Shown here piece after piece: positions 1,043 to 63,663 of a DNA stretch of 64,000 nt. Source of the DNA: Paracyclopina nana (lineage: Eukaryota > Arthropoda > Copepoda > Cyclopoida > Cyclopettidae); NCBI GenBank assembly GCA_019096065.1, contig JAGUCH010000002.1, positions 6,460,501-6,524,500 of the forward strand, read 5' to 3'. Numbering within the stretch: position 1 is the first letter of the stretch; each line of letters begins with the position of its first letter. A program made the position numbers and the translations under genes. The notes under the pieces are model-generated. The model worked only from the letters and a program-made list of their open reading frames with translations. It did not search any database and was not told the origin of the DNA.

Positions 1043-1593
1043 CTTGAGAAAATATTTGCTACAATCATATTAGTTTTTCTCCTTAAGAATGAACCCAATT
1101 AATCTCAATGTATTTCCAAGTTGAGCTCGAGTCAACTGATAAAAATGTGCTAGTTATGGTGAATTTGTCAGTCATTGAAAAGTCTTCTTGAATTCAAGAA
1201 TTCCTCTTCAATATTGTGATTTTCCAGGAAAAGTTTTCTTGACCAGATGTTATGAATTGACATCATGCTGAGAATGCAGTTGGTGTCAAATATTTTTGAC
1301 AAATCAGGCTAAGAAAATTGTACTATGACTTTTCATTGTGTTGACCAAAATAGGGAGGTACCAGGTGTGAAAATTGTACACTTTCAAATCGCCAACATGT
1401 TAATCAAAAGAGCCAAAATCAGAATTATTTCTGTATCAGTCACAGTGGCTTGTCTTCTCATTGTGTCTCATCCATTTGCTTTCCCACTACTATGACAGAG
1501 AGCAATGTATTATAAAAGACTTCACTGGGACACAAATCACCTCAATTATGTGAGGTTGCAGCGTTACCAGATGTTTCATCAGGGTTTACTACT
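1043..1593. other. AT-rich flank between integrase unit and BEL element
   Basis: No convincing gene. A 32-codon ORF on the plus strand (1397-1495) has a hydrophobic stretch after a basic start, but nothing else supports it. Base composition changes from AT-rich to GC-richer at about 1.6 kb, which probably marks the 5' break point of the retroelement. No LTR is recognisable here. Confidence 0.4.
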
Positions 1594-4311: not shown

Positions 4312-4398
4312 TCAAAAAAGAAAGCCGCAATTCGGTCACCGTACTGGGACTTCCAGCCGCATCCGGAGCCACAAAAAAAAGCAGGTGAACTACGAAAG

Positions 4399-5925: not shown

Positions 5926-6123
5926 CTATATGGTAGTTTAAATTTTCGCGCGCTTGTAGTAGTAATAAATTTGAATTTTGCCGCCGTTAATTTGTCCGCG
6001 AAAAAGCTGAGTGAGTCGAGCTCGCAGCCAATCACAGCGCGAGAAGCGGCGAACAAGTTCAGCATCATTTCCGTTTCCAAGATAATTCGAAAACAATACT
6101 GCGTTCCAAAAGACCGAAGAACC

Positions 6124-24426: not shown

Positions 24427-24499
24427 TAGCAAATTCACGCGGGAGATTCAGTCTCAGCCACTGACAATTTCTACGCTGGGAAATTTTCCCGGGTAGCTA

Positions 24500-30973: not shown

Positions 30974-30995
30974 AAAAAAAAAAAAAAAAAAAAAA
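30972..30995 (+). repeat. Poly(A) tract between the two BEL ORFs
   Basis: A run of about 24 A that begins within the gag-pol stop codon and is followed by an unstructured A/C-rich stretch up to the next ATG at 31022. It may help ribosomes reach the second ORF, or be a relic of how that ORF was acquired. Confidence 0.9.
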
Positions 30996-31021
30996 CCCAC
31001 GCCAAGACCAACCACAAAATA

Positions 31022-34000
31022 ATGAATACCAAACCACCAAACACCACGAAAACCACATCAACACCACCAACCAACAACACCACATCAAAGAAGCCCAATC
31101 CATTTATGAAGTGTTTTTATTCAATTATGACATCAATAAAACGCAAATTTATAATGTACTCTCGCAACCTAGCGGAAATGAGTAAGTTGAGAAATATGAA
31201 AAAACAAAACTCGTCAAAACAAACCGGGTCAAAAATTCGAACCGTTTCCGGCGAATTCGACTTTGCAGCGAGAATATTCGACGCTAAGAAAATGTCCGAC
31301 CGAAAAGCGAAGCGCGAACGAAGCAGAGACCGCGACCGTGAGCGCGATCGAGATCGGGGCCGTGAAAAGGATCGGGACCGCTCGAAGAGCTCGAAGAGGC
31401 CGAAAACCGCAGAGGAGGAGGCCGTGATCAAGAGAGGCCGGGAAATCCAAGCGTCGACCGAGCGGAAACCAAAAACGCCGAAGCCAGTCAAAGAAGAAAA
31501 GCCCAAGATTGGCCCACCGTCGAGGTCCTCAACGCCGTTGTCGCCCAAGCCGGGGACGAGCAAGAAGCCAATCAGGGAGAGATTGGGGAAGAGGGAGTCA
31601 TCCGCATCGAGCCTCAACGACACGACTGAGCAGATTGTGCTCGGCGGGTCGTCCCCCACACGAAGAGTAGTCATTGAGACCAGTGACGACGAGCCGTGGA
31701 AAATAGACGAGCAGCAAGGGAAACCATTCGATGTCGAGGCGGTCAAGACAACATGGAGTGAGAAAACTAAGGTACCCCGAGTTGTAATCTACGATGAAAA
31801 TAATCTCGAGCAGATGATGGAGGTCTTCACGAAAGACTATGTCGACCCTGGAACATTGATCCTCGGCAGCAGCTACAATTACGGACCAAAATCGGCAGAC
31901 GACAAGCGCACACAGAAGCAGAGGTACAAGGCCCAAAGAGGAGAACAATTCAAAGCGCTGAGGAGGGCTCAAATGTTGTCGATGCCAATTAGGCCAAATT
32001 TCGCCCTCGCAGTCTCTCATGGCCCACAACTGGCAAAACTGATGGAAAAGTATGGCGACTTGCAAGAGATGGACATGTTGCAACCGGTGGATCAAGTACA
32101 GTTCGAACAGCAAAGGAAGTTGCTCGAGGGAGTCATCAAGAACTGCTGGGACCACAAAATGTCCGACGAGGAGGTCTACCTGGTCTTGGAACAAGGTAAA
32201 GGAGCATCCTCAATTCCGATTATGTCCCGCGTTATTCAGACCGGCCCAATGAGCGGCAAAATATACCTGGCACGAACTGGGGAGGTCATCACTGAGGACC
32301 AAATCACGCAGATCGCAAAGCTTCCAAAAGGATTGCGGATCTACACGGACAAGACCGAGGAGGAGGTGCTGGACTTGATCAAGACCACAAACAAGGCCGC
32401 CAGACGCCAGTTCGAAGCAATCGTGGTGGAAGAAAAAGCAGTCCAGTCAGAGGCAGTCGAAATCAAAGACAATGAAGCTCAGACCGACGCAGTGGCTCAA
32501 CACACTGGTGCCGGACTGGGCCAAGGTTGCCCGGCTGGCACTGGTGGCCCGGAGCCCATGGAGGTCGAAGAAGCAAAGAGCGAGCCAAGATCAGCCTCAC
32601 AGGGACCATCGTCAAGGATGTCATCGGCAGCCCCATCAGAGCACACAACCTACATTCCAGCAGGAATGGAGGACGAGTTGGCCGCCGAAAGACTCACTGA
32701 AATAACCGGAGACGAAGTCTACTGCGATATGAGAGCACTGACACTGAAGCTGCCAAGCAAACAAATAGATGTGCCTGGGAGAGACGAGGACGCCAAAAAG
32801 ATCACCAAAGAAGGCTGCCCTGAAAGCATCGCTGGAGCACTCTACAAACCCGTGGACATCGAAAAGTACGAGAACAAACAGTGCAGAAAAGTTCTCTGTC
32901 AAGCATCGACCCCATTCCTGGAAAAAGACTGCGTCAATAGAAAAAAAGGTACATTCCCTTATTTAGCTGTGGCAGAGGCGATGAAGAGAGCCAAGATGGC
33001 AAAGGGAGGCGTGTATGACCTCGAAACTCCTGGAAGAGGTAAAACATACATGTACGGCCTCGTCGAGGATGCAGAGAGCGAGTACTGCTCACAACATGGC
33101 GAGGAGTTCGACATCATGCTGGAGAGATCTGGGTTTTACAAGGAGATCAAGCAGACGAGACTGATGACATTCGACACCGAGGGGCTCTCAGAGGACTACA
33201 AGGTCACTTACCATTGCCAAAAGCCAGTCACCATCGGACAGGAAAGCAACACGTTCGCGTACGCTCACTTTGGAGCTACAAATGGCGTGGCAGCAGGCGT
33301 GAGAGTGATGTATGTGGGCCACAGCACATTGGGTAAGCAAATTCCTCTCAAAATCAAGCAGCTGCTCGAGGACGAGACCGTGTGCAAGCTGGGCTTCAGT
33401 GTCTACGAGGACCTGCCAAAGTTCGCAAGAGTGGGGATAAAAGTGAGGAATTGGATGGATGCAAGGCACCTCGTGATACTGCTGAATCCATCATGGGGAA
33501 AACAGCAACCACCATCATCGAAGTCGGCAGCCATCAAGATACTGGGAGTAAAAACGACTATCAAACCTCCGTTCTGGAAAAAGGAACACAGAGCAATGCC
33601 CGTCGACAAGTACCTACCTAGCACGATGTACTACGACCGCGAGGATCAATTCACACCGTTGGCCTTACTCGAGTTCACTGCTGCGAAATTGGCGCTCCAA
33701 AATGGAGCCACTATGGAAACGTGTGTTAGGGGCTACATGATGTACCTGACGGCAATGTACATGGGCAGACCGATCGAGATAGGTGGCAAAACCGTGCGCT
33801 ACTTCGAAGGCCTCCTGCTGGACCAAAGTTGTCCGGAGGAGGCTGACGAAAGATCGCTGAGGCCGCTGATCCACACCTACCACTACTACAACAACCACAG
33901 GGAAACATGCGACAACTTTACCAAATATGGCATGGAATTCATCATGGATAGGACATCGATCAACATGGTCCCAGACGTTGACCTTACTCAGTGGGAGTGC

Positions 34001-34444
34001 GAGGTTGGTAGCAGCGTCAAGGAATGGATGGACCAGTCAGAGATAGACATCTTCAAAGACAGGGTTGCCGCGTTGTTGCTGCCATTCAAGGATGTCCAAA
34101 AAACCTACGCGACAGAAACTCCACACCCATGCTCAGTGTGCGGCCTCAGTGGACACAAGGTTGAAAATTGCAATAGAAAAGAGGGCTGCACTGTACCGAC
34201 GTGTATGGGAGACGACCACACAACTGGAGCATGCCCAATGTTGCTGGAACGATGTGAGGAGTGCGGACAGCTTGGCCACCGCCCACAGGATCATCAAAGG
34301 TTCAACTTGGTGCAACTACACGCCATCAGACGAACCACAGCTCACCTGCACGCGATAACGGTGATGACACTAGACGTTGATCTGAGGCTGAAAATGGTCA
34401 AACGCGGCAGCACCTTCGAATTCAAGAGAATCGGCGACCGTTGA
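31022..34444 (+). CDS. BEL second ORF: exonuclease-like domain plus zinc knuckles
   Basis: 1140 aa from the first ATG; an ATG at 31292 (MSDRKAKRERSRDRDRERDR) gives 1051 aa and fits better with the related ORF at 6124. N-terminal part is an Arg/Asp-repeat basic region and disordered. From about residue 710 it reads as a WRN/RNase D-type 3'-5' exonuclease: Exo I Asp718-x-Glu720 in MTFDTEG, Exo II Asp797 in CKLGFSVYEDLPKFARVGIK with preceding LLEDETV, and an Exo III-like site TPLALLEFTAAKLAL whose acidic residue is Glu884, not Asp. Residues about 1037-1100 hold zinc knuckles (CSVCGLSGHKVENC, CMGDDHTTGAC, CEECGQLGH). A nuclease or nucleic-acid-binding role in the element's life cycle is inferred. 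It occupies the env position but shows no signal peptide or membrane segment. Confidence 0.7.
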   Translation: MNTKPPNTTKTTSTPPTNNTTSKKPNPFMKCFYSIMTSIKRKFIMYSRNLAEMSKLRNMKKQNSSKQTGSKIRTVSGEFDFAARIFDAKKMSDRKAKRERSRDRDRERDRDRGREKDRDRSKSSKRPKTAEEEAVIKRGREIQASTERKPKTPKPVKEEKPKIGPPSRSSTPLSPKPGTSKKPIRERLGKRESSASSLNDTTEQIVLGGSSPTRRVVIETSDDEPWKIDEQQGKPFDVEAVKTTWSEKTKVPRVVIYDENNLEQMMEVFTKDYVDPGTLILGSSYNYGPKSADDKRTQKQRYKAQRGEQFKALRRAQMLSMPIRPNFALAVSHGPQLAKLMEKYGDLQEMDMLQPVDQVQFEQQRKLLEGVIKNCWDHKMSDEEVYLVLEQGKGASSIPIMSRVIQTGPMSGKIYLARTGEVITEDQITQIAKLPKGLRIYTDKTEEEVLDLIKTTNKAARRQFEAIVVEEKAVQSEAVEIKDNEAQTDAVAQHTGAGLGQGCPAGTGGPEPMEVEEAKSEPRSASQGPSSRMSSAAPSEHTTYIPAGMEDELAAERLTEITGDEVYCDMRALTLKLPSKQIDVPGRDEDAKKITKEGCPESIAGALYKPVDIEKYENKQCRKVLCQASTPFLEKDCVNRKKGTFPYLAVAEAMKRAKMAKGGVYDLETPGRGKTYMYGLVEDAESEYCSQHGEEFDIMLERSGFYKEIKQTRLMTFDTEGLSEDYKVTYHCQKPVTIGQESNTFAYAHFGATNGVAAGVRVMYVGHSTLGKQIPLKIKQLLEDETVCKLGFSVYEDLPKFARVGIKVRNWMDARHLVILLNPSWGKQQPPSSKSAAIKILGVKTTIKPPFWKKEHRAMPVDKYLPSTMYYDREDQFTPLALLEFTAAKLALQNGATMETCVRGYMMYLTAMYMGRPIEIGGKTVRYFEGLLLDQSCPEEADERSLRPLIHTYHYYNNHRETCDNFTKYGMEFIMDRTSINMVPDVDLTQWECEVGSSVKEWMDQSEIDIFKDRVAALLLPFKDVQKTYATETPHPCSVCGLSGHKVENCNRKEGCTVPTCMGDDHTTGACPMLLERCEECGQLGHRPQDHQRFNLVQLHAIRRTTAHLHAITVMTLDVDLRLKMVKRGSTFEFKRIGDR

Positions 34445-46702: not shown

Positions 46703-47294
46703 CGCCCCACTAATAAAATTTGCGCTCGTTTAGCCGTCAGGAAGTCAAGGTTCTCTAAAGGATTATCTATTTGGTTCTTGGCTTTTTGCGGCATGTATTG
46801 CCCAACCAAGTCGAAAATGTTAAGAATTATGTACTTGGGATTTTAAGATCTGAAGTACTTGACAAGTCCTTGGCGAGTCAAGATTTTCTAGAAAATACGA
46901 ATGTTTACGTTTTTTAGGGTTTTAGCGACTAGAAGCAACAGATACGATGAAGAAATGGTTATGTCGATTCGATGCCAAGAAACTGGAGATGATTCAAGTC
47001 GGCTTAATTTTACTGCCGTGGCCAAGCCGCCACCAAGGAGATGTACGATGGCAGAGATTTTTGAAAACGGGATGAAATTGGTGCCAAAAGTAGGATTATT
47101 ATTGCATTATATCACATAAAATTTGCATCTCAATAAATATGAAATAATTAGATTAATATTTTTGGAAGCTCTTCTGTCAGAATCGATCAATCTATGTACA
47201 GGAAAATTGGACGTCGTCTTCTGGGCTTCAAAAGTGATGGCTGGTATCTTCTTATTTGTCAGGGCTGACTCAACGCAAGAGAGATACTGCAAAT

Positions 47295-50200
47295 CTACTT
47301 GTCGACAGCTTGAGAATTATCTGAGGACGAGTCCGTCTGGAATTGTGTGGGAACGTCGGGTGCAGAAAGGACGGCCTAAAAGAGTGTAAAGGTTATGTGG
47401 TGCAAATACATACATTGATATGTAAAGGTTGAGTAGGAGTTTATGATTATGTAAAAGAATGAATGAAATGTTGTTGTATGATTTTGGGAGGATGCGATAA
47501 AGTTAAGAACGATTAGAAAGAAGGTAAGTCTGGACTCACAGGCGGCTCAATTTCCTGCTCTTCTTCTTCTCCATAGTCGGACTCGTAAAGGCTCTGGTCC
47601 CTGGTAAGTTCAGCAGCCGCAGCAGCCTATGTAAGTACACGAAGAGGAAAGAATTATAAGTTGCCCTTCATTAATCAAATTTTGCATGTCCTTACCGAAG
47701 TTGAAGGCTCTGGCTCCGATTCTGATTCGAATGCCGCAGAGAGGTTGCGGACTGATGCTGCTGTCTGCTTTCGCTCCGATTTCTTGCTACTTTTCTTCCC
47801 AGATCCTTTGGCCTTAGCAGTCTCAATCTGAACATCTGGCAAGTATGAAGACGCATCGGCGGAAAATCTTCTGACAAGGGTGTTAATGTCAGTAGTCTCA
47901 GCGACCACCTCTTCATACAACCGGGGAAACTATAAGTTGACATGCACAATATGTAATTTTTAATAGAAATGAATGCTGCATTTGAGAAACATTACCTCTG
48001 GAACAGCCTTGATTCTCATGTAGGTCAAATTTTGCCAATCCTGGCCCATGAGATGAGCAGCCACAATAACATGACGAATGACCTCTTTTACGTCCAACAC
48101 TTCTTGACTGCTATTGTTGAGAACGCTCAAGATATCCTTGGGATTGTCGCACACGCCGGAGAAGGACGTTTTGGAAAACTCGCTTCTTTTACGAGTAGCA
48201 GCCAAGTGCTCGTCATAAGATGGCACAACTTTTTTAGGATCTTTGTGGTGCATGTTAGCCACATAGAACTCGAAATCCACATCAGTGACGGCAGTAGCAG
48301 CCTCGTCCAAGTTTTGAGCTCTGTTGCCCGCCGTAGTCAGCATGGTGCCACGGTCCGTGTTCAGCATTGTTGCCACATACTGATCAATCTCAGAGAGGTG
48401 CTTGCCCTCTGGCGCGTCCTTGACTTTGTATAAATCTTGCAAAGCCGGAACAATGCTCTTATCGATCATGGCATGAACGCCTTCCGGTATTGGCCGCTTG
48501 TTGAAGTACAAGTTCTTCAACGAGCTTTACAAGAAAGACATAGTTTTTCAATGACATGTAAGATAGCTGTACTTTGTAATTGAAATACTATGCATATCAA
48601 TAATTTTGCCTAGCTACATGTGTAATGTGCCGCTCTTCTAACTAATTATGTTAAATTTCTTTAAAGATCTGCACTTACTTGGTGTTTTTGCCAACAATCA
48701 TGTGTGCCCGAGCTAAAGTTGTGAAGATCGTGTGCATGACTCCTTTGGCCATCGTGTAGTGCAATGTTGACAGTGGTTGACCTCGAAAGTATGGTAGCAG
48801 AAAAGCAGCCACTTGTTCCTGCATCATTAGTAGTATGTGTAATATGTTCTTGCCATTTTGACTCATTGTTATTGAGTGTCTATGTGTCATAAAGTGCCAA
48901 AAATATTACCTGAACAAAGTGGAAAGCAAAAAACACGTCACACGACTTGCCCATGAGGTTGAACGGAATAAGGCGAAGCAGAATAGCTCTAGCTTTCGAT
49001 CTGATGTCAATATTGCCTAAGTAGGTCTTAGAAGGACTGTTCTTGACCTGTTGTGACACATCAATGAATTTCTCATTCATCGACTTAACAGTCTTTTTGA
49101 CTTCCTGAAAAATAGTCGCATGGCATTTGAAAATGAGCATGATTGAATGTTTGAGCAACAACATAAGACCTGTCATTGAAAGAAATAGTGAAAAAAGGTA
49201 CTTACAAGCACCGTTGCAAACTTGTTGTCTAGTTTCTTAGACATAGAAGTCCTGTCTTTGTCCATCACTCCTTTTAGCTCCTCGATCTCGTCTTTCAATG
49301 CTCCTTTCATCTTGAGAAACAATTCATGAAGGCACTTCTCCAAATATCCTCGAGTTACAAGCTCGTGCTTGTGCTGACCGCCCTACAAGTGCACATACTA
49401 TAGTTAGGCATGCATGATATTGGCAGAACATTAAGTAACTTACAAAGTCTGGCTCCTTCCTAGCAACAGGTGCATTGTACCGGGAGCCAAATGGTTCCTT
49501 GGTGGAAGTAGTCTAATTGAAGAAAAGTCATATACTAAATGTTGCATTTGTATTACAAGTAAGATCATTTTAACTTACCGTAGTTTCAGCTATTCTTGTT
49601 CGCGACGATGTTGCTTGCATGGGCATAGGTGACTGCAAAAAGTTTAATGTTTGGTTTACATTGCTTCAATCTACCAAATCATTGAAAGTTTCTTAAAAGA
49701 TTATGAAGCACTTACTTCTAGTTCTAATTCGCCAGAAGATGTCACTTTGAACGTGATGTTCATATTATCTGCCTCAGTGACATTGGTGAGGAGTTGAGAA
49801 GCATTTTCCTCGCTAACCATAAACGTGACTTGTCCTCCATCAGTTGCAGTCAAGATGTTTGACGAAACATCTTCGCCAGAAGTAGCAGCTCCAATGAAAG
49901 CAGTGTCCAATCCTACTGGCTCTCCTGTTGGCTCTCCTGCTGGCTCTCCTGCTGGAGTGCCCGGAACGGAGGTCGATCGACTTGACTGAGGGTTCGACCT
50001 TGCAAGAGCCATTATCTCACTGAAAGTTGTCGGATCGTTGTCAATGTTCCTCTGGAACGCTTCAAGGTCGGCAGACGAGGCAATGATGCTTGCGGCCCTA
50101 GCTTGGGAGACAATGGCGGCCTGCTTTTCTTGTTCCTCCTTTTCAAGTCTTGCAATCCTGGCTTGGGCAGCCATTGCTGCAGCCTCCTGGAAAGCCCTTT

Positions 50201-51189
50201 CAGACTCCTTAAGAGCGGCTTCTTCTTCCAAGTACCGTTTGGCCCTTTCAATCGCAGCTGCCTTGCGAGCTTCATCTTCAGCCTTCTTCTCTGCTTCTTC
50301 ACGGCGAGCAATCTCCAACGCTACTTTGCGCGCAGTGGCCTCTTCAGCAACTTTTCTGGATGCTTCTTCCAACCTCCTTTGGATCATTTCCTTCTCTTTA
50401 GCTTTGGCAGCCTCAGCTGCGGCAGCTGCTGTTGCAGCGCTACGAGTCCTTTTGGCAGGTGATTTGTCGGCGTTGGCTGCAGGTTCGCTGCTTGCAACTT
50501 TCCTTTTGTTGCCCATTCCAAGTGCCTTTTGGATAGTTGTAACACCTAGGCCATCGTCAGTTTCATCGGTGAACATTGGTGGAGGATTTTCCACCATACG
50601 TCTTGTTTGGATGCTCCACGGAGTGTACTGGAAGTTGCCGTCAGCTTGTTTTCTCGAGTAGACGAAGTCTTTCATGAATTTCTCCAGCCAATTGTCGACC
50701 ATGGCTGTGTAGCGCGCCAATCGCTGATCTTCCTCGACTTCCTCCAGCTCATTGTTTAGGTCTCGCAACGTGTTCTCGACTCGAAAAGATTCAGTTCCTA
50801 TGGAATGAATGAATTTTGAAAGTTAAAAACGTAAAATATGACAGCGAGAATGAAATTGTAATGCTATGTGAAAAAGCTCGAGCATGCAGAATGTTTAAGT
50901 CAAGGTTTATACCTCTTTCAATTCGACAGAACAGAAAGGCTTCCACCCGTCCTCCTTCAGTCAATAACTGGAATGGCCTTAAACGAGATGGTTGGTACAA
51001 TCTCCTTGTAATGTTGCCCGAGTAGTAGTGGCCGAGGCGATGCCCTTCTGGAGAAGTCCAGTCCGTTGCAAGGTAGGAAAACGCTGGCGTCTGCCCCAGG
51101 CAAGCGATGATGACTCGATCATACTCTCCAGGAGGCTTTTTCTCGCTGGATAACTCTAAATTTTTCGGATTCGGATTTCGATTCGCCAT
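47295..51189 (-). CDS. Conserved companion protein of the transposon, copy I, 974 aa
   Basis: Eleven exons on the minus strand: 51189-50913, 50797-49716, 49632-49579, 49512-49444, 49382-49206, 49104-48910, 48818-48679, 48524-47996, 47929-47696, 47626-47540, 47375-47295; all phases agree and the sum is 975 codons. I recognise no known family. N-terminal part: YDRVIIAC, then FCRIERG and ESFRVENTLRDL. A long Ala/Glu/Lys/Arg coiled coil (about residues 200-330) carries a basic AKRTRSA patch that could be a nuclear signal. The best-conserved block is ILLRLIPFNLMGKSCDVFFA and EQVAAFLLPYF, followed by LARAHMIVGK and NKRPIPEG. The C-terminus is acidic and Ser-rich. By position it is likely the DNA-binding accessory protein of the transposon (TnpA-like), which is inference. 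Confidence 0.8.
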
Positions 51190-51591
51190 TTCGGAAACTG
51201 AAATTTTGACCGATTGCGATTTGGCGAACAATTTTTAAGTATCCTGCGCAATTTTTAATATTTTTTAATTGCTTATTATTTGACGGCTTTGCAAGTACTT
51301 ACCAAGTCGCTGTCAAGGAATCAAAAGTCGTGAACCTGACCTTCCTAAACTGGTTTTTGCTAAAAGCTTCCGGTAATTTTTAAGTACTTGTCAGCGCCTT
51401 GACATTGCCTTTTCAAGTCAATGTTATTGTAGTTGTTTCTTTTGTGAATTTGTTGCTGAGATATTGAATGCACTACTCCACTGACCTTTTCAGCAATTAC
51501 GGAGTAATAATTAGACCTAATTAGTGCTGAGAAAACCTTAAGCTGTTTCCTACTTTAATTTCAGAAAGTCTTTCGAAAGCAAAAGGCAGCC
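51190..51591. promoter_or_regulatory. Divergent promoter of copy I
   Basis: 402 bp between the two start codons. Contains several copies of a motif in the AAGTCAAG/CTTGACTT group, including AAGTACTTGTCAG and TTTTCAAGTCAATG (51380-51425) and GCAAGTACTTACCAAGTCG (near 51291). The same motif recurs at both outer ends of the element. Confidence 0.6.
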
Positions 51592-54454
51592 ATGCCGAAA
51601 GCCAAAGAGAAAACACGAGGATCAGAGAAACCGAAGCAGTTAAAAACGAATCGACAATGGAAACCCGTGAACCGAAGGAGGACGGCTCGAATGCTAAAGC
51701 GAATCAGCAACACTTTGAGTGTCTTGAAGCAGTCCGTCAGCACAGAGGTCCAAGTTTTGACCAACATCGAGAATATACGTACACGGAGAAGGTAAGAAGT
51801 GTAGAGTTCATGTGCTAATCAATTATGTCTCACGTGCCAATATCTTAACTTTCTCTTTCAGCACTCAAGGTCTCGAAGAAATACCTGAACGTATTAAGAA
51901 GTTGCACGATCAGGAGAACGAGCTGTTGGAATGCCGACAAGAAATATGTGCAGCCTTGGATGATGAGTTCAACTCCGGAATCTCTAGTGACGACTCAGAC
52001 ATTATTGTTGTCAACCAGCACATCGCCAAGCCAATTCCAAGCTCCATCGTTGAGGCCATGCGCATTCCATCAACTAGCTCGACTACATCAGTTTTGGAGA
52101 CCGAGCACAGTTTGCCTCTTCAAAATGCCTTGGATGAGGAAACATTGGCTATTTTGAACCAGACGGTCTCCTCCGTGTCATCAGTCATTCCGGACTTGGA
52201 GAGGGAAGATATGTTTGAACCTTACAGGACTGAGATTGCTCACATCAAAGCAAAGATCAAGGATAACGATCTCCCATCCAGCTGTGATGATTCCGATTAC
52301 AGCCCAAACAATGTCTCGAAGAATGAGTTCCTGGAAGGAAACGACGACTACTTGGCCATTCAAGGTATTGTCACCGAAGAGCAGATAGCGATGGACCAAG
52401 AACAAGGATTTGACCACGTTGCCAATGCCCATGGGGATTATAATCTCTTGCCTTTGAATGACGAGGGCGTGGAGCTGGCCAGTGAAGAAATCGAGGCATT
52501 CATTGATGTCTTGGATCCAGATGTCGATGAATTTGCTATGGGCACGCCTGAAGAGTTTGTAAACGTGGATGATGAAAGCTCGTCTAGTGTGAGGGGTCGC
52601 CTCAACTACGAATACTTCAAGGAGATGGCCAGGAAAGAAATGGCAATCGAAACTCAGGACGAGAAGAATCGTCTTTTCTTTGAGCTCTTTGACACTGTGT
52701 CAGTTGATGGCTACATGACGAAGAGGGCGACGAAGAATGTGTACAATTTGTTCAGAGCGTTTATGGAAAGCCGTCACATGAGCTGCTACGAAACTTCCAA
52801 GAAAAGGTACCTCGCTGATAGTCCTCCAATCACTATGTGCTTTGAATTCCAAAACATTGAAACGGGGGAAATCACAAGAGTCAACGGCGAGACTTACCCT
52901 AGAAAGGAATTCCCTCGAGATAAATGGATTAAGATAAGCGAGTATGCAACAGTAGACATCATGGACGTGTGGAACCATGCATTCCAATGTCATGGCGACA
53001 AAGAGAACTACTTGCAAAGTCGAAAGCTAGTGCTCTTTATGGATGGGCTTCCATTGTCGAAGTCTGGAGATGCTCAGTTGAATGCGGTCTGCGTCCGAAT
53101 TCCGCCTTGTCGTAGCGGATATGTGCTTGGCATGCACATTTATCGCAAAGAATCTGGATTGACCCCTAATGGCATCATGCACAACATCTTGAGAGATTTC
53201 CGCTACTACAAGTTTGAGCTTCGGCAAATGATCGGTGATGCTCCTGTGCGTAGCAAGTTGCGAGGCCTGAAACTTCACAGTGGTTGCTTCAGTTGCGAGT
53301 TCTGTTTCGCGAAAGGTCTACGAGTGGAACGACGACAAGTTTTCCCAGCGATCACGTTTGATGAGGAGAAACGAACCAGCTTCTGGTACTACGATACAGC
53401 CACTCAAATTGAGGAGAGAGGAATCGCTGATTTCACTGCTGATGAGCTGAAAGGCATGACAAGTGCAACTCCTTTGTCTCTAATCCACGAATTTGAGCAG
53501 ATGAAGCAATTCTTGTTGGAGCCCATGCATAACTTCTCGGGATGCATTAAGCAGTTCATTCGGCTCATGCTGAAGCTGCCAAAGACAAAGCAACTCCATT
53601 TCACGGCTCGTCAGCAGAAGATATTGAAGAAATTTGACAAGCGCTGGCAAAACATTGTCCTCCCGAGGGAATTCAACAGACGCGCAAGATCACTATCAGG
53701 CTGCTTCGTGTTCTTTAAGAGCCAAGAACTGATCTCGTTGGCTATCGCTGCACCTTTTGCTTTCGCCGAGTCTTTCGATGATGAATTGGACAAGCCTGCT
53801 CGTGCGTGCTGGTTGACTTTCGCCATGATCTTGCGAGCCGTCTGCATGGACGATCATGGTCTATGGCTGAACGACGTGACCAATCATTTGGAAATGTACT
53901 CCAAAAATGCTTACCAGATGTTTGAAGACACTTTTGGATTGGTCAACTGCGGGTGGAATATCCACAACTTCTTCTCTCACGCCTACCACGTCCGCTTGAT
54001 CTCGCGATACCCAGCTTTGAGCGCCCTTGGATTCGAGTCGGACTTCAATATTTTCAAGAAGTGGATGCAATCAAACACCCCCAGCCTGGGAAAGCAGATC
54101 ATTCAGAAGGTCTTCCAGAGAAACTCGATGAGCCATGACTGTCAAAATATCGTGAGGTTCAGCCCATTCGAAGCAACTAGGTTCTCCGACAACTTGTGCT
54201 ACACTCGCCACATGGAGTTCTTTCAGATTGTTGACATCAAGAGTACTTGGTACGTTTGCAAGAAAATCAAGACACGCAAATTTAAGACAGGGGATACTCC
54301 CACCATTGACTGGTACGTGAATGGTATTATGCTCTACCTTGGGTTTGTCGATGAAGATGAAACTTGCCATGTCGAGAAACGTGACGTTACTGCCAAGGCT
54401 GTCATTGACGGCAAGTATATTGTCTCCATTCCATTTGATGCATTGTTCATCTAA
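51592..54454 (+). CDS. EnSpm/CACTA-like DDE transposase, copy I, 930 aa
   Basis: Exons 51592-51791 and 51862-54454, joined across a 70-bp phase-2 intron. N-terminus is basic (MPKAKEKTRGSEKPKQLK). An acidic Ser-rich region follows. The catalytic core resembles transposases of the EnSpm/CACTA group: LVLFMDGLPLSKSG (Asp461), MIGDAPVRSKLRG (Asp526) then a CxxC in SCEFCFAKG, FLLEPMHNFSG (Glu620), then LPREFNRRARSL, WLTFAMILRAVCM and FGLVNCGWNIHNFFSHAYH, which parallels the conserved C-terminal block of that superfamily. The protein ends KAVIDGKYIVSIPFDALFI, shared with copy II. It would cut and join element ends. No frame damage, so it may be functional. Subclass is uncertain because the element ends are not CACTA. 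Confidence 0.75.
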
Positions 54455-55261
54455 GCTGATTTCTGCTCAGTCTTTACATGATAAAGACGTGCTACTTATT
54501 ATTTGTGTTTGACGATGTAATCGGGGCTGCTGTCGCAAAAGAAATGACAGTAGACCCCTTCTCTTTGACCACTATGATTATTAATATGCAAAAGCTTTTC
54601 CTTATAAGACGTGTATTGATTCAATTGTAAGGAATAAAAGTCAAGATTTATGTGTCATTTTGACAGATGTCATTTTGTTGCGTCACTAATCACAGTTAAC
54701 GCACTAGCTGCTTATTACAGTCTCTAAATACAATGCTTCCAATCATCAACCTCTTTGATCATAACTGGTTATTGAGATATACATGTAGATTCAAAGAATA
54801 TCATTGACTGGTTGCTCTTGTTGCCACTTGACTCACTGAGTCCTTTGAGCGTTCCTGCTGGCAATCGCTGAAGCATATGGTTTGCAAATTGAGTCCATTG
54901 CATGAGGACGTCGATCGTTTATTGTAATGTTAATCATTTTTTCCAATATTACAGTCAAGATAGATGTAAGAATTCCTGTTGAAATTGCAGTCGTTCGTCG
55001 TTACTTGCCAAAAACGCGATACTGAAAGAAAAATGTCAATATTAGCTACATGACATGTCAACATATCTAAAGCTTTATCTCTAAAGGAGAAAATGGAGCT
55101 GTCGAGTAGATGGTGACGTCACCTATTCGTAATAATAGCATAATGTCAAGTTCATCTCCTTGAAGTCAATAGTTTCTCTAGATGATTCTTAAAAATGCTT
55201 CCAGCCGAAAACAAGGACTTTCCTTTTGAGATCGAGTTTCAGAAAGGCACGATTTATTTTG
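54455..55261. other. Right subterminal region of copy I
   Basis: No gene. Holds further AAGTCAAG-type motifs (near 54636, 54825, 54953, 55143, 55160). Transcript end signal AATAAAAG near 54633. Confidence 0.4.
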
Positions 55262-55269
55262 GTGGGGCG

Positions 55270-56054
55270 ACACCGCCTCCGCCATATTTATTTTCACCGA
55301 GCCTTCATTGCGCTCCTGCAGCAGAAGCAGCTTAATTTCAAGGATAATTATGACGTTTTTGGCCAACCGAGCGTAGGAGCAATTTTGCGAAGAAGATGCC
55401 CCCTTACGAATTTTAGCAAAAATTAAGATTCGTTTTTGTGGCGCCACGCCAAGTAGCGGACCAAGCAAACTTCAACGCCCACTTTTAAAGAATTTTGTGT
55501 GCAAATCAAATTAACGCGGCGTTATCGACTTTTCCTGCTGAAATTCGGGATTTTGATGACAGACTGTTCATTTCGCAAAAAATTAGGCTCAGGCTCTTTA
55601 GTATCAATTTTGAGCCTCGTATTTTGTTTATGACCGTCATAAATTGCGTCTGCTCCATAAATCATTCGATGAAAATTAACTTTTTGGGCTACATTTCTCG
55701 AGCATTGCAGCACAAAAAAAGACGCTGAATTGAATCGGGATCATAATGTAGGCACCATGCGTGACATATGAGGAGAGGGGAGGTTCATGCATAGCTTAAA
55801 AATCATCGGTCAATGCACGACTGGCCGCGAAAAAAATGTCCTGTTTGTCTCGCGTTCATTAGCAGGACGCTGGCGAAAAATTGGGTATAAATAAGTAGCT
55901 AACGCGAATAGCTGCAGCGCCTCATTAACCAAATGACGGCCGCAACAGGATTTTGTCAAAAAAAGTTGAAAAGTCAAAACAGAACTTGGCCAAGTAAAAA
56001 CATGCAAATCGCGGTAAAAAAAGGAACGTGTTCTCCACTCACTCGCTGAGCACC
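55270..56054. other. Spacer between the two transposon copies
   Basis: About 785 bp with no gene or repeat recognised. Confidence 0.4.
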
Positions 56055-56074
56055 AGCTACCCCACAAAATTTTT
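56055..56074 (+). repeat. Left terminal inverted repeat of copy II
   Basis: AGCTACCCCACAAAATTTTT, exact reverse complement of 63644-63663. It lies 466 bp beyond the last exon of the companion gene. Confidence 0.88.
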
Positions 56075-56539
56075 GAAGCGTCCGATTGACGAAACCACGT
56101 TGGAATTATCGTGAGAATTTACTTGAGTATCTCATTGATTTTCGTTCGCTATGTGCCAAACCTGACGTGGAAATGTAAGATGAGCTGATGATAAATCGTT
56201 GTTTTTCTTAACAGGGTTTCATGAGAAGCTGATGCCGGAGATGACGATAGTTGACGCCAAGCAAAGACACAGGGTGGCCGCGGTCTTGGTTTTTCAACAA
56301 TTTCTTATGTTAATTAATGAGATACTAACGCAAATGCTGTAGTGAATAAAATGCTAAAAAATGAAAAACTGACGTAGGAAAAAAACAGTCATTTGTGAGA
56401 AATGAAGGCCAGTTTGGCCTTTTTGGCCTTGTAGGCCTTTAATCTTTTAATTTGCAATGTGTTATTGTAATAGTAATATCATTCATTCATTTAAATAATT
56501 TTCTTCTTGCATTGTCAAGTCGTCGAATCATACTGCAAT
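56075..56539. other. Left subterminal region of copy II
   Basis: No gene. Carries repeated TGACG words (near 56086, 56162, 56239, 56249, 56369). Confidence 0.5.
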
Positions 56540-59500
56540 TCATTGTGCCTCGGGGGTCGTAGCATCGTCAGAAGAAGAAGTCAATCTGCGGGTGGGATCC
56601 GCAATCCTAGCCCCAGACGTTCCAGGGTGTGCCTAAAAATGTAAAGGAGCATGATTTGTAAAAGGTAATTATGATAAAATGAGTTGCGGGCTTACAGGTG
56701 GGATGGAGGCAGGGTTCTTCTTCTTCTTTTGAGGCTCTTCATCACTGTCCGGATCGGGGGAGCTTTTCCTCTTCTTGGATGAGTTAGAGCCCTGCAATGA
56801 GAGAAATTATTGTGAGCCTTTGCTCATTTCTCTACAGGTCAACTTACAGAATCGTCATCATCATCGCTGTCGGTAAGAATGGCCTTTTCGAGTTTTCTTT
56901 TTGCACTTGTCTTGCCAGATGTTGATGGCAGTGCAGTTGGATCCAATGCTTTCTTGGGGCTGTTGATGGTGCCGATGAAAACTTCTGGCTTGTAGGCAGT
57001 TCCCTCAGAGGAGTAGAAGTTGAGCAAGTCGTTGATGTTATCTCCGATCTCTTCAACAACCTCGTTGTAAAGTCGTGGCAGCTAAACAATGAAAGGTTAT
57101 TAAAACCGAAATGTCTTTGCATTATGATATTGCGATTACCTGAGGCACTGATGGCAAAGCATCAAACTCGAGCGTTCTAAAGTCTCGTTTGAAGCAATGA
57201 GCCGCAGCACAAATCCTCTTCAAGACTTCCTTCACATCCAGTTCTTCTTTGACGCATGACGATTTGAGTTCGTCAAACACATGGTTGGGGTCAACATTAC
57301 GGGTCTTGGTGAACGCCCCAGCTTCTTGGCTCTTCTTGGCATTCTTGAACTGACCTCGATTCATGATGTAATCCAAATGTTGATTGTATGACGAGATGCT
57401 GACTGAGCTCTTCAAGATGTGCTTGTTGTGCTCATGGAATCGGTAGTCCTCATCTGCAACCTTGTGAGCCGCATCTTCAACATTGTCAAACGAATCCACT
57501 GCCAACTGAAGGTACCTCTTCCTATCAGTGCTGAACAATGTGGTGCAGGTTTTCCTCAGATCCGAAATGTTATTTCGGTGGACTAATGGCGATAAGTTGA
57601 ACATTTGTTCAATCGCGAGCACCAAAAACTTGTCGACCATATTGTGTAGGCCTTCTGGCAATGGTCGTTTGTAAAAAACGAGGTTTTTGATGGAGCTGTA
57701 AGAGAAGTGTTAGTATTCGTAAGTATTTCAATATTTCATCCCCTTTTGGTGTATTTTTGGGGGTACATTAATTGATTATGTTAGTGTTAGCATTTTGCTT
57801 GAGAAAATCATCACTTACTTGTCAATTTTGCCGTAAATGAGGTGAGCCCTCGCCAAAGGAGTGAAACAAGTCACAACGCAGGTTTTAGCCAACGTGAAGT
57901 TGATGCCAGCCAACTGCATTTTCTGGAGGTATGGCGTGATGAAGGCGCAAAGCTGCTCCTGAACTAACGGGCTCGCAAAAAATACATCACATGCTTTCCC
58001 CATGTAGTTAAAGGGGATCAGACGAAGCAGTATGTAGCGTCCTCGAGTCTCGGTCTGAATCTGCATGCTCACAGACTTCTTTGGACTGGCTTTTGCAACT
58101 TGCTCGCTTACTCCAACTATCTTGTTGTTGAGTCCCTTGACATCACGTTTGATTTCCTGGATGGACATTTCAGGTTGATATTACTTGTGAAATAAAGAAA
58201 GGGAATGATGATTTACTTACGAGGACATATCCAAACTTATTGTCGATCTTCTTGTCTAGCTTTTGGTACTTGTCATTGACAGCCTCACGAATTTCGGCAG
58301 TGATCTCTTGAGCATGAGCCTCCATAACCTCTTGAAAACTTCGCAGCAACTGTGTCATTTCTCTTTTCAGGAATGCCTTGGTGACCAAATCGCTCGCAGA
58401 CACAGAGTCCTCTTCGCCCTAAGGTAAGCAAACAATGAAATCTGAAGTAAGAGCAATTAAAATTAACAACTATTAATATTACTTCAACTTGAGTTGGCAT
58501 CGGCGGCTGGTTTGGCTCCGATGTGGACTCGTTGTTGTTATCGTCACTTCCCATCATTGTGCTCGATGTTGTTGGAGCTGTTGGAGCTGTCGCAGCTGTA
58601 ACGAGGACATTGGCTGGTATAGGTAGGACATCAGCAGCAGTGATGTTGACATATCGCGATTCCCCAGGTTGAGTGACAACAACATCCTCAAAGATGTCGG
58701 CAGGCAAATCTTGGGAGACTGTCGTTGGCATTGTCTCCGGGAACCAGGATGACATCGACGACGTCGCGCTCATACTGGCCTTGATTTCTTCAATCGTGAG
58801 AGGCACGGCTCTCTTTGACGAGAAATCAACGGGGGCATCTGATGATGGAATGATCTTGTATCCACCCAATGTCAATGGCGTGGTGGCTGATGATCCGGGC
58901 AAGCTTGCCGATGAAGTCATAGGCCATTGAGATGTCGTTGCAGGTGGCAACGTCATCTGCTCGTGGGCGGCAGTCTGCCTTCTTCTTTCTTCAGCCTTCT
59001 CAGCTAACGCCTGGTCCAACTTGGCCCTTATCTCGCGAGCTTTCTCCTCAGCAATCTTAGCTTCATCAATGGCCTTTCTGGTCTTCGGTCGAACGTGATG
59101 TTGGCTCGGATTTGGCATGTTGATGTCTGATCCAGCATTGTCATCAGTCAATATTCCAGCGCTTCGGCTGGTGTCTCTTGAGAACCGCGTGCGAACCTTG
59201 TTCCACGGGTTGAAGTCGAACGTGTTGGTGATCGGATTCCTCATTTCGTAGTGGATGTCCTTCTCGAGCCTTTCAAAGAAGTCGTCGACCATGTGCGTGC
59301 GATAGATTTCGACCCATTCCTCCTCAGAGTACTTCATGATCTCATCATTCAACATCTTGACGGCCATATCGACTCGGAAATGTTCGAAACCTGAGAATTG
59401 AATGAGTAGTAAGGATTTGAGCGCGCGAATGGAGAAGAGAGTAACTTTTGAAAGGATTTAAGTGCGAGAACGGAAAAGAGAGCAACTCGTGATATAATCA

Positions 59501-59748
59501 CCTTGTTCAATCCTCGCAAAGTAGAAGATTTCCTTTTCAGATCCGTTCATCAGTACTGAGACTGGGGTTGAGTGCCTCAGCTCCTCGATCTTCTTGTAGA
59601 CGTTGATCTTCTTGGCGACCGCCTGATCGAACGTTTTGCCGTTGTCCAATTGCAAGTTGAGGGGGACAAACGAGAAGGGAGGGGACTCCGATGGGCAGTA
59701 GATGATCCCGCGATCGTAGATTCGCTTAACTTTTGCAGATTTCGCCAT
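56540..59748 (-). CDS. Conserved companion protein of the transposon, copy II, 889 aa
   Basis: Eight exons on the minus strand: 59748-59502, 59390-58483, 58418-58221, 58156-57819, 57695-57140, 57081-56848, 56791-56696, 56632-56540; sum 890 codons. Clearly related to the copy I protein: YDRGIIYC for YDRVIIAC, ARIEQG and EHFRVDMAVK at the first junction, ILLRLIPFNYMGKACDVFFA and EQLCAFITPYL in the conserved core, LARAHLIYGK, YKRPLPEG and LPRLYNEVVEE. The exon of 78 codons has the same length in both copies. It lacks one intron (inside VQEQ) and the two small exons of copy I. N-terminal coiled coil with KAIDEAKIAEEKAREIRAK; C-terminus basic then acidic (KKRKSSPDPDSDEEPQKKKK), consistent with a nuclear protein. 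Function is not known. Confidence 0.8.
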
Positions 59749-60162
59749 TTCAATAATTTTAAAAAGAGCTGCGTCTTCTTGGGGGGCGGTTTTTTTAACG
59801 TGTTGCCGGTTGACGACAAAAAATATTCAAATATATTATTTTCACGCAATATTTAATCACTGTTGTTTTGACGTTGTGAAATCACGAAAAACTGACGCTG
59901 TTATTAATAGAAGCGACGACGACGGACAACAGCTGAAAAATATTTGCTGAGAAGATTAGCGTCGTCAAATTTCTAGTAAAATGTCATTGTCATCTCACGA
60001 AAAGCAAACTTAACAATGATTTAAGTTTAATTAAATCAGGAAATGCCTAAAAAACTGAAAAACTGATCCATTTCCGTCTCATTCAATTTCAGGCCCACAA
60101 TTATCGAAAACGGTCGTTTGCAAAGGATTTGCAAATTGCGAGTACTGCTGCAAAAGCTCAAC
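59749..60162. promoter_or_regulatory. Divergent promoter of copy II
   Basis: 414 bp between the start codons, matching the 402 bp of copy I in length but not in sequence. Contains TGACG-type words (near 59812, 59868, 59892, 59961) and a GACGACGACGG cluster. Confidence 0.6.
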
Positions 60163-63054
60163 ATGGTTAGGAAACGAAAGCCAGATGATGGCATGCCTGG
60201 CAGCCTCCAACGGAAGAAGTGCCCAAAAACGAAGTCTGCATTGAACAAGATGAACAACCGGCGCACGCAACGAATGCTATTGCGCATGAATGAAGCTCTC
60301 GCCAACATCAAGTTGAACATTCATGAGGATGCAACGAAGATTGATGGCATCTTGCGAGACAACAACAAAGGGTACAAATCTAACTCTACATTAAATATTT
60401 GCATTTAAACATGTCAGCCAAATTTTAACATTTTCAGGGACCACGACGAGCCCATCAGCGACCTCTTCAAGCAAGAAGGAGAGATTCACGCGATCCAAAC
60501 TGAAGTTGCAAATGCTGTGCAAACGAATTTCTTGACGTCTAGCAGTGAAACTGACGATTGCCAAGCGAAACTGGATGAAGCTAAAAAACGCAACGTTTTT
60601 GTGTCATCAAGTGAAGATGAGTTGCAAGCCATCACTCCTGTGCAAATATTGCAGCCTTTGCCATCAACTAGTGTGAGACGGCAATATCCTGCGGGTATGG
60701 CGAGAAAGGCACTGGAATCCACTCGAGCACTTGAGCCAGTCGTCCGTCCCGAACTTCCACCAGTGCTGTTCACAGGATTGGATCCTTCAATAAGCGTGAT
60801 TCCTGAAACAGAAGGTTTTCTTTTCAATGATGGCGATTTGCTTGAATATGACGATAGAGTGAAAATCAAGATTGATCATGACAGTGAAGTTTCGTCTGGT
60901 GATCCTCAAGGATTTGACTACAATGTGACATCGAATCCATCATCACACAGCGAAAATGAAGAGTCATCGTCAGAGCTATCATCAGAAGATGAAGCTATTC
61001 CATTGACGGATGCTTTGGCAACTCCAGCGGACACTCTCGGAAGTATTGCTGATGATGAGAGCACTCAAGTTGAGCCTTTACCTGGTACCTCACGAGGTCC
61101 TGGTGTGTATGTGAACAATGGTAGTGCAAGTGCCCCACCAATCATGGAAGTTATTGAGACGGATCCAAGGCTCGAGGCATCTGGAAACGTCAAACTATCC
61201 TTCAAAGCATTCAAGGATCATGCAAGAAGAGCTGAGCGAATTTGCGACATTGACTTGCGAAATAAGGCCTTCTTTGATATGTTTGACACAATTACGTCTC
61301 GCACTTGCACTAATGACACTGTGGCCCAAATGTACTACGATTTCTGCCGCGCCCAGTGTGAAATGAGGTCGCGTCTAATACCAAATATCGCGAGATACCG
61401 AAGAGAAGCTGACGCTGATAGGCCAACGGTGGTGATGGACTACGAGATAATGAATGTCAGAAGCAAGGAAGTGACGTTCATCGAAAATGCATTCAAGTAT
61501 CCGCAAAAACTGTACCCTCGGAAGGATTTCGTGAAAGTCAGTGAATATGCTCACACGGACATTCGAGAGATATGGAGCCATGCCAACAAGTCTCATGATC
61601 ACTTGCACAACTACAGGCCTTCAAGCAGCATCATTTTATTCATGGATGGCTTGCCATACTCCAAGTCTGGCATCTACAAGTTGAACATGGTGCAAGTGGA
61701 AGTGCCGCCATGCAACACTGTCTACACCTGGGGCATGCACATTTATCGTAGTGAGAGCAACCTTAACGCTAACAAGATTTTGGCGAGATGCATTTCAGAG
61801 CTCAAAGATGCAGAGTTGCGACTCGGGCGAGTTATTGGCGATTGCCCAGTGAGACATGAACTTAGCGGCATTAAAGGTCATGCAGGGTCCTACTCGTGCT
61901 TGCTGTGCATTGCCAAGGGTGAACATGTGCAGCATCGTCAGGTCTTTCATCCAGATACCAAGAATGCCCCAATGCGTGATGACTTTTGGTTCAAGGATAT
62001 GGCGAGACGCATCAACAAATATGGCATTGAGTACTTTGACCCTGAGGATCTCGTTGGCCTGACTGCTGCAACACCTCTTGCGTGCTTGGATGGTTTCAGC
62101 ATGATCAAGGATTTGCTGTTGGAACCTATGCACAACTTTTCGGGTTGCGCTAAGCAAATGATTCGGCTTATGATGGGTTTCTCGTCAAAGTACAAGTGCA
62201 AGAAGAAGACAATCACTCAGATGGGTTTGCTTCATGCCTTTGATAATCGATGGGAAGACATCTCCCTCCCGCGTGAATTTAATCGTCGAGCTCGCACAAT
62301 GGGTGAACATTTCAATCACTACAAAACTCAGGAGATCATGTCGATCATCACGTGCGGATTGTTTGCATTTGGCGAAGCATTCGAGGGCGATTTCTACAAA
62401 GGTTATGTCGAGACGTGGTACACATTCTGCTTCATCATCCATGCCACCCTGTTTGATGATGAGATGTACGCCTACATCGACGAGAAGTGCAACCTGCTGG
62501 AAATGCAAGGTACTTTCTATGATCTCTTCTATGAAAACTTCGGTCTCGTGAACTGTTCGTGGAATATTCACACGTTTTATCACACTTACTACGCGAGGAG
62601 CATCTCACGAATGCCTCACATAAGTGCACTAAGATTTGAAGGAGACCTTAGCTTCATTAGCCGCAACATCAAGCCAAACACGAAATCAGTACCGAAGCAG
62701 GTCATGCGTCGAGTTTTCACCAGAAACTCGTCAAACCACAGCTGTGAAAACAAAGTGACCTTCTCCACCGCACCTGCCTCTCGCTTTTGCGATGATATTG
62801 TGTATACAAAGGATAGGCGTTTCTTCCGTGTCACTCATGTCTCTGGAGCTGACTACATCGCTCGTCAGTTTATCACGAAGCCATTCAAAACTCCAGCAGC
62901 ACCAGACCTGAAATGGGAAGTCATTGGCATCGTTGAATGGGTCAAGCTTGATCTTGATGTCGACCATGTTGTGCCAAAGAAAGAGTGTGTTGGCAAGGCC
63001 ATCATTGACAAGCGCTACCTCATCTCATTGCCATTCGACACTTTTTTCACTTAA
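60163..63054 (+). CDS. EnSpm/CACTA-like DDE transposase, copy II, 941 aa
   Basis: Exons 60163-60371 and 60438-63054 across a 66-bp phase-2 intron at the same position as in copy I. Core residues: Asp473 in LFMDGLPYSKSG, Asp538 in VIGDCPVRHELSG, Glu632 in LLLEPMHNFSG. The distances 65 and 94 are identical to those of copy I. CxxC (SCLLCIAKG), LPREFNRRARTM and FGLVNCSWNIHTFYHTYYAR are also conserved. N-terminus is basic (MVRKRKPDDGMPGSLQRKKC), with an acidic Ser-rich stretch before the core. Ends KAIIDKRYLISLPFDTFFT. No frame damage. The ORF starts at an ATG after CTCAAC; an upstream in-frame ATG at 60118 adds 15 residues and is not favoured because it lacks a counterpart in copy I. Confidence 0.75.
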
Positions 63055-63643
63055 GAAGACAACGACGAAGAAAATATGAACTATGTATAGCTTTCAAAAC
63101 TATGACAATTTTGATTCCACCACTTGATTCTTGTCATGCAATGACAAGCTTTGATTTCTTTTCCACCACTAGGGTAATGCATCGTAATCATTGAAACTAA
63201 TAATACTTGTCACATTGTCTAGTTCAAAATAAACGATATAAAACATGAAATTTTGTTTAAGGGAATTTTCATTTGCTCATATGAAATGCAACCAGAGCTT
63301 CTTTCAATTCAATTCATGTATTTGTTCATCGTTCATCAATCCAATTGATTGCGATCATCAAGTTTCATCAGATGTGCCTAAGAAAAACACAGAAAATATG
63401 AATTAATTTTACTAATTTAATTATCATGATATGCTTGCAATAAGTCGTTATAGTTTTCATAAGTATTCTTTTCTTTGGATGACAAAAAAAGATCATGAGA
63501 TTTCTAACTTCCATCTGGCCTAGCTTTTTCCGTCAATCTGGTATCATGAGAACCTGACGGTTATTTCATAAGTTTATGACGATCATTCTTAACTGATGTG
63601 AATCTGACGCATGACCACGATCTACTCATTAAGAAATGCGTGT
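63055..63643. other. Right subterminal region of copy II
   Basis: No gene. AATAAA near 63228 ends the transposase transcript. TGACG words at about 63553, 63575 and 63603 lie close to the terminal repeat. Confidence 0.5.
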
Positions 63644-63663
63644 AAAAATTTTGTGGGGTAGCT
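63644..63663 (-). repeat. Right terminal inverted repeat of copy II
   Basis: Exact reverse complement of 56055-56074, about 590 bp past the transposase stop. Confidence 0.88.

Follow-up and report, generated by a model that had tools for sequence, protein, structure and literature searches.

In the RAG and ProtoRAG systems a RAG1-like enzyme is paired with a second gene; target duplications of the RAG type are 5 bp long and RAG2 is a Kelch propeller. Two genes are said to set the PIF transposons apart from other DNA transposons (PMC9710019), and in plant CACTA transposons TNPA-like proteins bind subterminal repeats, which differ between elements (PMC2613891). The animal CACTA-related TRC elements (SmTRC1 and its relatives in Tribolium and Aedes) have terminal repeats starting with CCC; SmTRC1 has an EnSpm-like transposase and 2-bp direct repeats at the ends of 7 of 14 copies, and the Aedes element is 9.2 kb long (PMC1636069). 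We analysed a stretch of 64,000 nucleotides from the copepod Paracyclopina nana (contig JAGUCH010000002.1, positions 6,460,501 to 6,524,500 of the forward strand; the genome comprises 92 Mb in 10 contigs), called the window below, in which two neighbouring transposons each carry a transposase gene and a divergently transcribed companion gene. Both pairs are probably autonomous two-gene cut-and-paste transposons of the CACTA/Mirage/Chapaev/Transib (CMCT) clade, in which the companion would be the partner that binds the element ends.

The original prediction, made from the letters of this DNA, described two diverged, intact copies of one transposon, each a head-to-head gene pair with starts 402 and 414 bp apart. 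Both distances are exact and the frames are indeed unbroken: both transposases consist of two exons with only a terminal stop, and all companion exons examined are open. The predicted limits, 46703..63663, match the element ends: the CG duplication starts at 46703, and the inverted repeat AGCTACCCCACAAAATTTTT / AAAAATTTTGTGGGGTAGCT ends at 63663. The copies are also strongly diverged, with an identity of 0.41 in the transposase core (618 residues) and of 0.33 in the companion conserved exon (180 residues). They are not two copies of one transposon; they are different subfamilies of one lineage, separate insertions with 792 bp between them, neighbours by chance. Their features are as follows.

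46705..55267: element 1, complete transposon of 8,563 bp, with CCCCAC at the left end and GTGGGG at the right end (14 of the 20 outermost bases match) and CG directly outside both ends
46703..46704 and 55268-55269: element 1, target site duplication CG, left and right
47500..51189, minus strand: element 1, multi-exon companion gene (ATG at 51189; 3' limit approximate)
about 48910-49104, 48679-48818 and 47987-48526, minus strand: element 1, conserved exons of the companion
51190..51591: element 1, intergenic region of 402 bp between the divergent starts, presumably a shared promoter
51592..54454, plus strand: element 1, transposase gene (exons 51592-51791 and 51862-54454; 930 amino acids)
56060..63658: element 2, complete transposon of 7,599 bp with the terminal inverted repeat CCCCACAAAATTTTT
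56058..56059 and 63659-63660: element 2, target site duplication TA, left and right
56580..59748, minus strand: element 2, multi-exon companion gene (ATG at 59748; 3' limit approximate)
about 57818-58180 and 57125-57709, minus strand: element 2, conserved exons of the companion
59749..60162: element 2, intergenic region of 414 bp between the divergent starts
60163..63054, plus strand: element 2, transposase gene (exons 60163-60371 and 60438-63054; 941 amino acids)
56080..56379: element 2, companion-side subterminal region, with TGACG/CGTCA five times
63339..63638: element 2, transposase-side subterminal region, with TGACG/CGTCA four times

The two genes are linked throughout the genome. The companion exon of element 2, used as query, gave 74 matches genome-wide, and its transposase exon gave 72 matches at 69 places (three of the matches are further pieces of one broken copy). 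With queries from remoter members added, at least 76 distinct transposase places were found, and 146 companion matches were merged to 114 places; the transposase counts are lower bounds, based on the best 70 of 236 and the best 71 of 237 candidates. The predicted head-to-head layout recurs at 66 of the 76 transposase places listed, which have a companion within 8 kb, each with one located divergently upstream, its exon 3.0-4.5 kb away from the transposase core exon; for three of these places, among them that of element 1, the closest companion match is that of the adjoining element. In 200 trials of random placement, 1.7 places were linked on average and never more than 6. The transposase of L067 is only about 30% identical to that of element 2, yet recognisable conserved companion exons are present there.

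Because synonymous sites are saturated, we report the proportions of non-synonymous (pN) and synonymous (pS) differences rather than the ratio of the corresponding substitution rates (dN/dS). In 11 diverged pairs (transposase identity of at least about 66%), both genes have a pN of 0.11-0.22 and a pS of 0.73-0.85; a further four pairs in this identity range are near-identical, with almost no changes. Element 1 and its nearest relative, C3:3.10M, have 88% identity in both proteins, with a pN of 0.069 and 0.077 and a pS of 0.79 and 0.74, which places only an upper bound near 0.1 on the ratio. On these patterns of change, both genes are under purifying selection, to a similar degree. Between elements 1 and 2 both site classes are heavily changed (pN 0.44 and 0.48, pS 0.74 and 0.79), and this comparison says little on selection because the two are too diverged; the check on selection is thus informative for close relatives, where pN is far below pS in both genes, and uninformative for the two window elements themselves. 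Transposase and companion distances are correlated over 16 dereplicated elements (Mantel r 0.921, with 0 of 9,999 permutations as high), with no sign of partner swapping. The linkage, the low pN between close relatives and this correlation together uphold the earlier proposal of an animal two-protein lineage in which both proteins are under selection.

The target duplication is 2 bp long in all 22 elements with both boundaries readable (17, element 1, two read by copy-to-copy comparison, C3:3.10M and L068), within the CMCT range of 2 to 5 bp; the duplicated dinucleotide varies (TA, TT, AG, CA, TG, AT, GT, CG, TC). In seven other elements (L011/L041, L012/L042, L014/L044, L033/L056, L034/L055, L006/L064 and L067) at least one end was not found in the stretches analysed. 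The tips are CCCCAC in 20 of the 22 readable elements and the variant CCCAAC in the other two. Among copies at different places, several pairs reach an identity of 99.3-99.98% across the 2.8-4.9 kb compared; in three of the four pairs compared, on one or both sides, the identity breaks off where the element ends (in C4:4.93M/C7:3.30M it ends elsewhere). Element 2 has a second copy at C3:10.92M (C3:10920926-10930925; L016, L023, L063), with an identity of 99.4% in one stretch (about 3.1 kb) and of 99.0% in another (about 3.0 kb) and with the duplication TT, not TA. The two stretches contain 14 and 20 gap openings but only 2 and 6 mismatches; these small gaps, which break the frames of the copy, may be decay or assembly error. 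Such near-identical copies at different places show recent movement of the family and suggest that the system was recently active. L003, L004 and L005 (C2:14.97M, C3:8.89M and C2:9.10M) are deletion derivatives of the C3:3.10M subfamily, about 2 kb long and 95-99.5% alike; they keep its left end and sequence from its right end, and the internal piece between the two is inverted relative to the full element. Their outermost right ends probably lie just beyond the stretches analysed. Neither genome-wide match list contains a companion or transposase match near them, and this is how elements mobilised in trans as passengers would look. Downstream of the transposase in L041, L042 and L044, the spacing of matches also suggests a tandemly repeated unit, about 238 bp long, near the transposase-side end of this subfamily.

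Concerning the transposase, the CMCT catalytic signature, with the definition and residue naming of PMC12730594, was checked in the codons of element 2 (first bases given).

61645..62640, plus strand: element 2, catalytic signature with D 61645, D 61840, C(2)C 61897/61906, H(3)H 62569/62581 and E 62638

The residues D162, D227, C246, C249, H470, H474 and E493 are invariant columns in 19 of 19 aligned transposases. The predicted model of the transposase has the RAG1/Transib-like fold of the CMCT clade; its best structural matches are RAG1 chains and BbRAGL, followed by HzTransib. The transposase is likely to be a RAG1-fold DDE enzyme of this clade, judging from the signature and the predicted fold. 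Residues 546-624 of the model form a beta-rich C-terminal domain past the RAG1-like part, barely covered by the structural matches. Transposase_21 (PF02992) had no match in the two window transposases (E<=1) or in the 19 transposases (E<=10), and because of this we do not file the elements as TRC members. Pfam scans covered single exons and whole alignments, and all matches were at chance level, among them DUF1258 (E 0.0055, 1 of 19 members) and DUF4806 (E 0.043, 1 of 21), which we rejected. Genome-wide searches with Transposase_21, DUF1258 and DUF4806 gave no signal and are uninformative, their controls being silent too. No relatives of the transposase were found in a collection of 5.8 billion proteins, possibly poor in animals (E<=0.001 among the best 7,992 candidates and E<=0.01 among the best 7,999). 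Sequence searches of the PDB gave no relative either.

The modelled part of the companion, which leaves out the N-terminal exon, is helical with a coiled coil. It has no clear structural match (best Foldseek E 1.5 in the PDB and 0.83 among viral models), and the same protein collection, with its possible shortage of animals, gave no relatives at E<=0.01 (1,705 candidates). In the companion pieces scanned with Pfam there was no match to Myb, SANT or MADF, and none to Kelch, with the model being helical in the part lacking the N-terminal exon. A BEN domain was considered, two BEN chains being present among the structural matches other than coiled coils; sequence tests gave no support, and it is kept as a lead only. 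Most probably, the companion is a helical partner protein that dimerises through its coiled coil and binds DNA.

Short repeats are found at the element ends, for which we counted motifs in the ends, the flanks and bases 320-620. Across 26 ends (13 dereplicated elements), the outer 20-320 bp contain TGACG 54 times (9.8 in shuffles and 7 in flanks of equal length), GAGAT 69 times (25.3 and 11) and TTAAGA 36 times (9.6 and 10). The elements were grouped by end sequence and similarity, without a tree; those within a group are related, so that their ends are non-independent. In the group of element 2, TGACG is present in 10 of 10 ends; it occurs 41 times, whereas shuffles average 4.9 (maximum 13), the flanks contain 5 and bases 320-620 contain 3. 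In two further groups GAGAT takes the place of TGACG, with 17 occurrences each against 2.7 (maximum 8) and 4.9 (maximum 11), and the group of element 1 and L035/L052 has 10 GAGAT against 3.8 (maximum 8). In 10 of the 13 elements the 9-mers common to both ends exceed those of at least 95% of shuffles.

We propose that the transposase would cut at the CCCCAC ends and insert the element with a 2-bp stagger, a step based on the ends, the predicted fold and the invariant residues. From the linkage, the constraint and the repeat arrays we infer that the companion marks the ends: a companion dimer would recognise the short repeats in the outer 300 bp of both ends, which differ between subfamily groups, and bring the transposase there, by analogy with the task of TNPA in plant En/Spm. 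The companion would be needed for transposition, each full element would be autonomous, and the short intergenic region would drive both divergent genes.

Several observations weigh against this explanation. The arrays are not universal: element 1 itself has little, and the L019 and L021 groups are unremarkable for TGACG and GAGAT. The ends of L007/L037 (element 2), L030/L061 and L031/L051 share no more 9-mers than many shuffles. Neither a sequence match nor a clear structural match marks the companion as DNA-binding. Parallel divergence is co-inheritance and does not show interaction. The tips, CCCCAC..GTGGGG, are unlike the CA..TG of most of the CMCT clade, a feature which holds in most cases and is hence no strict criterion (PMC12730594); the animal TRC elements, with CCC, deviate from it as well (PMC1636069). 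The linkage is also incomplete, as 10 of the 76 listed transposase places have no companion match (one partial copy and nine similar ones). The nine lone transposases have open frames of 647-706 amino acids and similar scores, and some companion-bearing members have the same length; they may do without a companion, and are possibly a one-gene sister group or have a companion too diverged for detection.

C1:9042228, C2:11856225, C5:2262208, C3:10609769, C1:1395893, C1:13307263, C1:13198028, C6:3530151 and C1:600923: the nine lone transposases

In the other direction, at 48 of the 114 companion places the transposase list has no entry within 8 kb, which may be due in part to the scoring of only the best transposase candidates. 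The well-kept, stop-free companion exon at C7:1828822-1829397 (L015), with neither a recognisable element end nor a transposase match less than 8 kb away, seems to be a true orphan, whose partner the search should have picked up. Stop-free companion exons with no transposase within 8 kb possibly also occur at C2:14814124, C4:4581960, C5:2357651 and C6:4950374; L015 and similar exons are candidates for orphaned or domesticated companions.

The main rival gives the companion a different partner role, as in PIF/Harbinger: it would be required for nuclear import, target choice or protection from silencing, and the repeats would be bound by the transposase or by host factors. We regard this as unlikely, while noting that linkage, selection and parallel divergence suit any obligate partner, and that TGACG likewise forms the core of a widespread host transcription-factor site. 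The second protein of PIF is described as carrying the transposase into the nucleus (PMC9710019). Against this rival, the arrays are concentrated at the ends, with lower counts in the flanks and in bases 320-620, and they differ between subfamily groups, which suits an element-encoded reader diverging with its sites. It is improbable that an ancestor picked up the companion once as a passenger that has since been carried along with no part in transposition: cargo of DNA transposons is known, for example TET/JBP, carried by fungal members of the CMCT clade (PMC12730594), but frequent loss would be expected of cargo, and the gene has been retained across transposases down to about 30% identity (L067), in a fixed divergent layout and under transposase-like constraint. 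The weakest explanation, left standing by the original prediction, is that one or both loci are domesticated or becoming so for the host, and it is very improbable: unbroken frames and purifying selection alone are compatible with host use, as is the stop-free companion exon without a nearby transposase at C7:1828822, but both window elements keep matching ends and 2-bp duplications, the second copy of element 2 is 99.0-99.4% identical with the duplication TT instead of TA, close relatives have moved recently, deletion derivatives have multiplied, and constraint over many dispersed copies is the pattern of elements persisting by movement.

The two transposons lie among genes for TAF7-like (TAFII55_N), Saf4/Yju2, BAR-SH3 and VWA proteins, together with a Pao-type retroelement. 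A retroelement-like region at 1516-8706 of the window contains reverse transcriptase and Pao peptidase domains. Another, of about 10 kb at 24497-34444, has a strong AT skew (0.24-0.38) and open frames of 2158 and 1156 amino acids; it looks Pao-like, with DUF1759 alone, just below the cut-off, in the portion scanned.

Among known systems, the TRC elements are the nearest in end structure, with CCC tips and 2-bp duplications common to both, and their EnSpm-like transposase is a further likeness (PMC1636069). They differ in that SmTRC1 has several alternatively spliced transcripts, likened to Spm, with no separate divergent second gene described in the available text (PMC1636069), and in that Transposase_21 was not found in the present transposases. 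Plant En/Spm (TNPA, TNPD) resembles the present elements in having a DDE transposase and a second protein for subterminal repeats, a role that is inferred here, and in repeats that vary between subfamilies while the end tips are kept (PMC2613891). It differs in its CACTA tips, 3-bp duplications and single alternatively spliced unit, against CCCCAC, 2 bp and two divergent genes here; the likeness is one of function. The PIF/Harbinger transposons of animals likewise encode the transposase and its partner in separate genes (PMC9710019); here the companion pieces scanned gave no Myb/SANT/MADF match, and the transposase combines the CMCT signature with a RAG1-like fold. The present family would be an exception to the two-gene distinction of PIF.

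Two-protein transposons and animal CACTA-like elements are already known; no CMC lineage with two divergent genes and a partner family of its own was met in the literature searched, which does not prove that none has been described. The titles and abstract beginnings found in the open-licence literature, a scope that excludes Repbase Reports and most subscription papers, report no animal CACTA/CMC element whose second gene is separate and divergent, nor is such a gene described in the available portions of PMC1636069, PMC12730594, PMC12810828, PMC2613891 and PMC9710019. Whether a diverse animal RAG1-fold CMC lineage depends on a divergently transcribed, repeat-reading protein of a new family, as one more independent two-protein machine next to RAG1/RAG2, plant TNPD/TNPA and PIF/Harbinger, whose enzyme and reader co-diversify in one genome, seems to us evenly balanced. 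Dozens of diverged sets of enzyme, partner and site within 92 Mb, many with open frames, would make partner specificity and co-evolution directly testable.

The transposase is likened to RAG1/RAG2, ProtoRAG and Transib by its best structural matches (RAG1, BbRAGL and HzTransib), and the present elements differ from the RAG type in their 2-bp duplications and in a companion whose modelled part is helical with a coiled coil. If the reading is true, animals would possess a CMC lineage in which a RAG1-like transposase regularly comes with a dedicated partner, and this has a bearing on the origin of two-protein recombinases like RAG.

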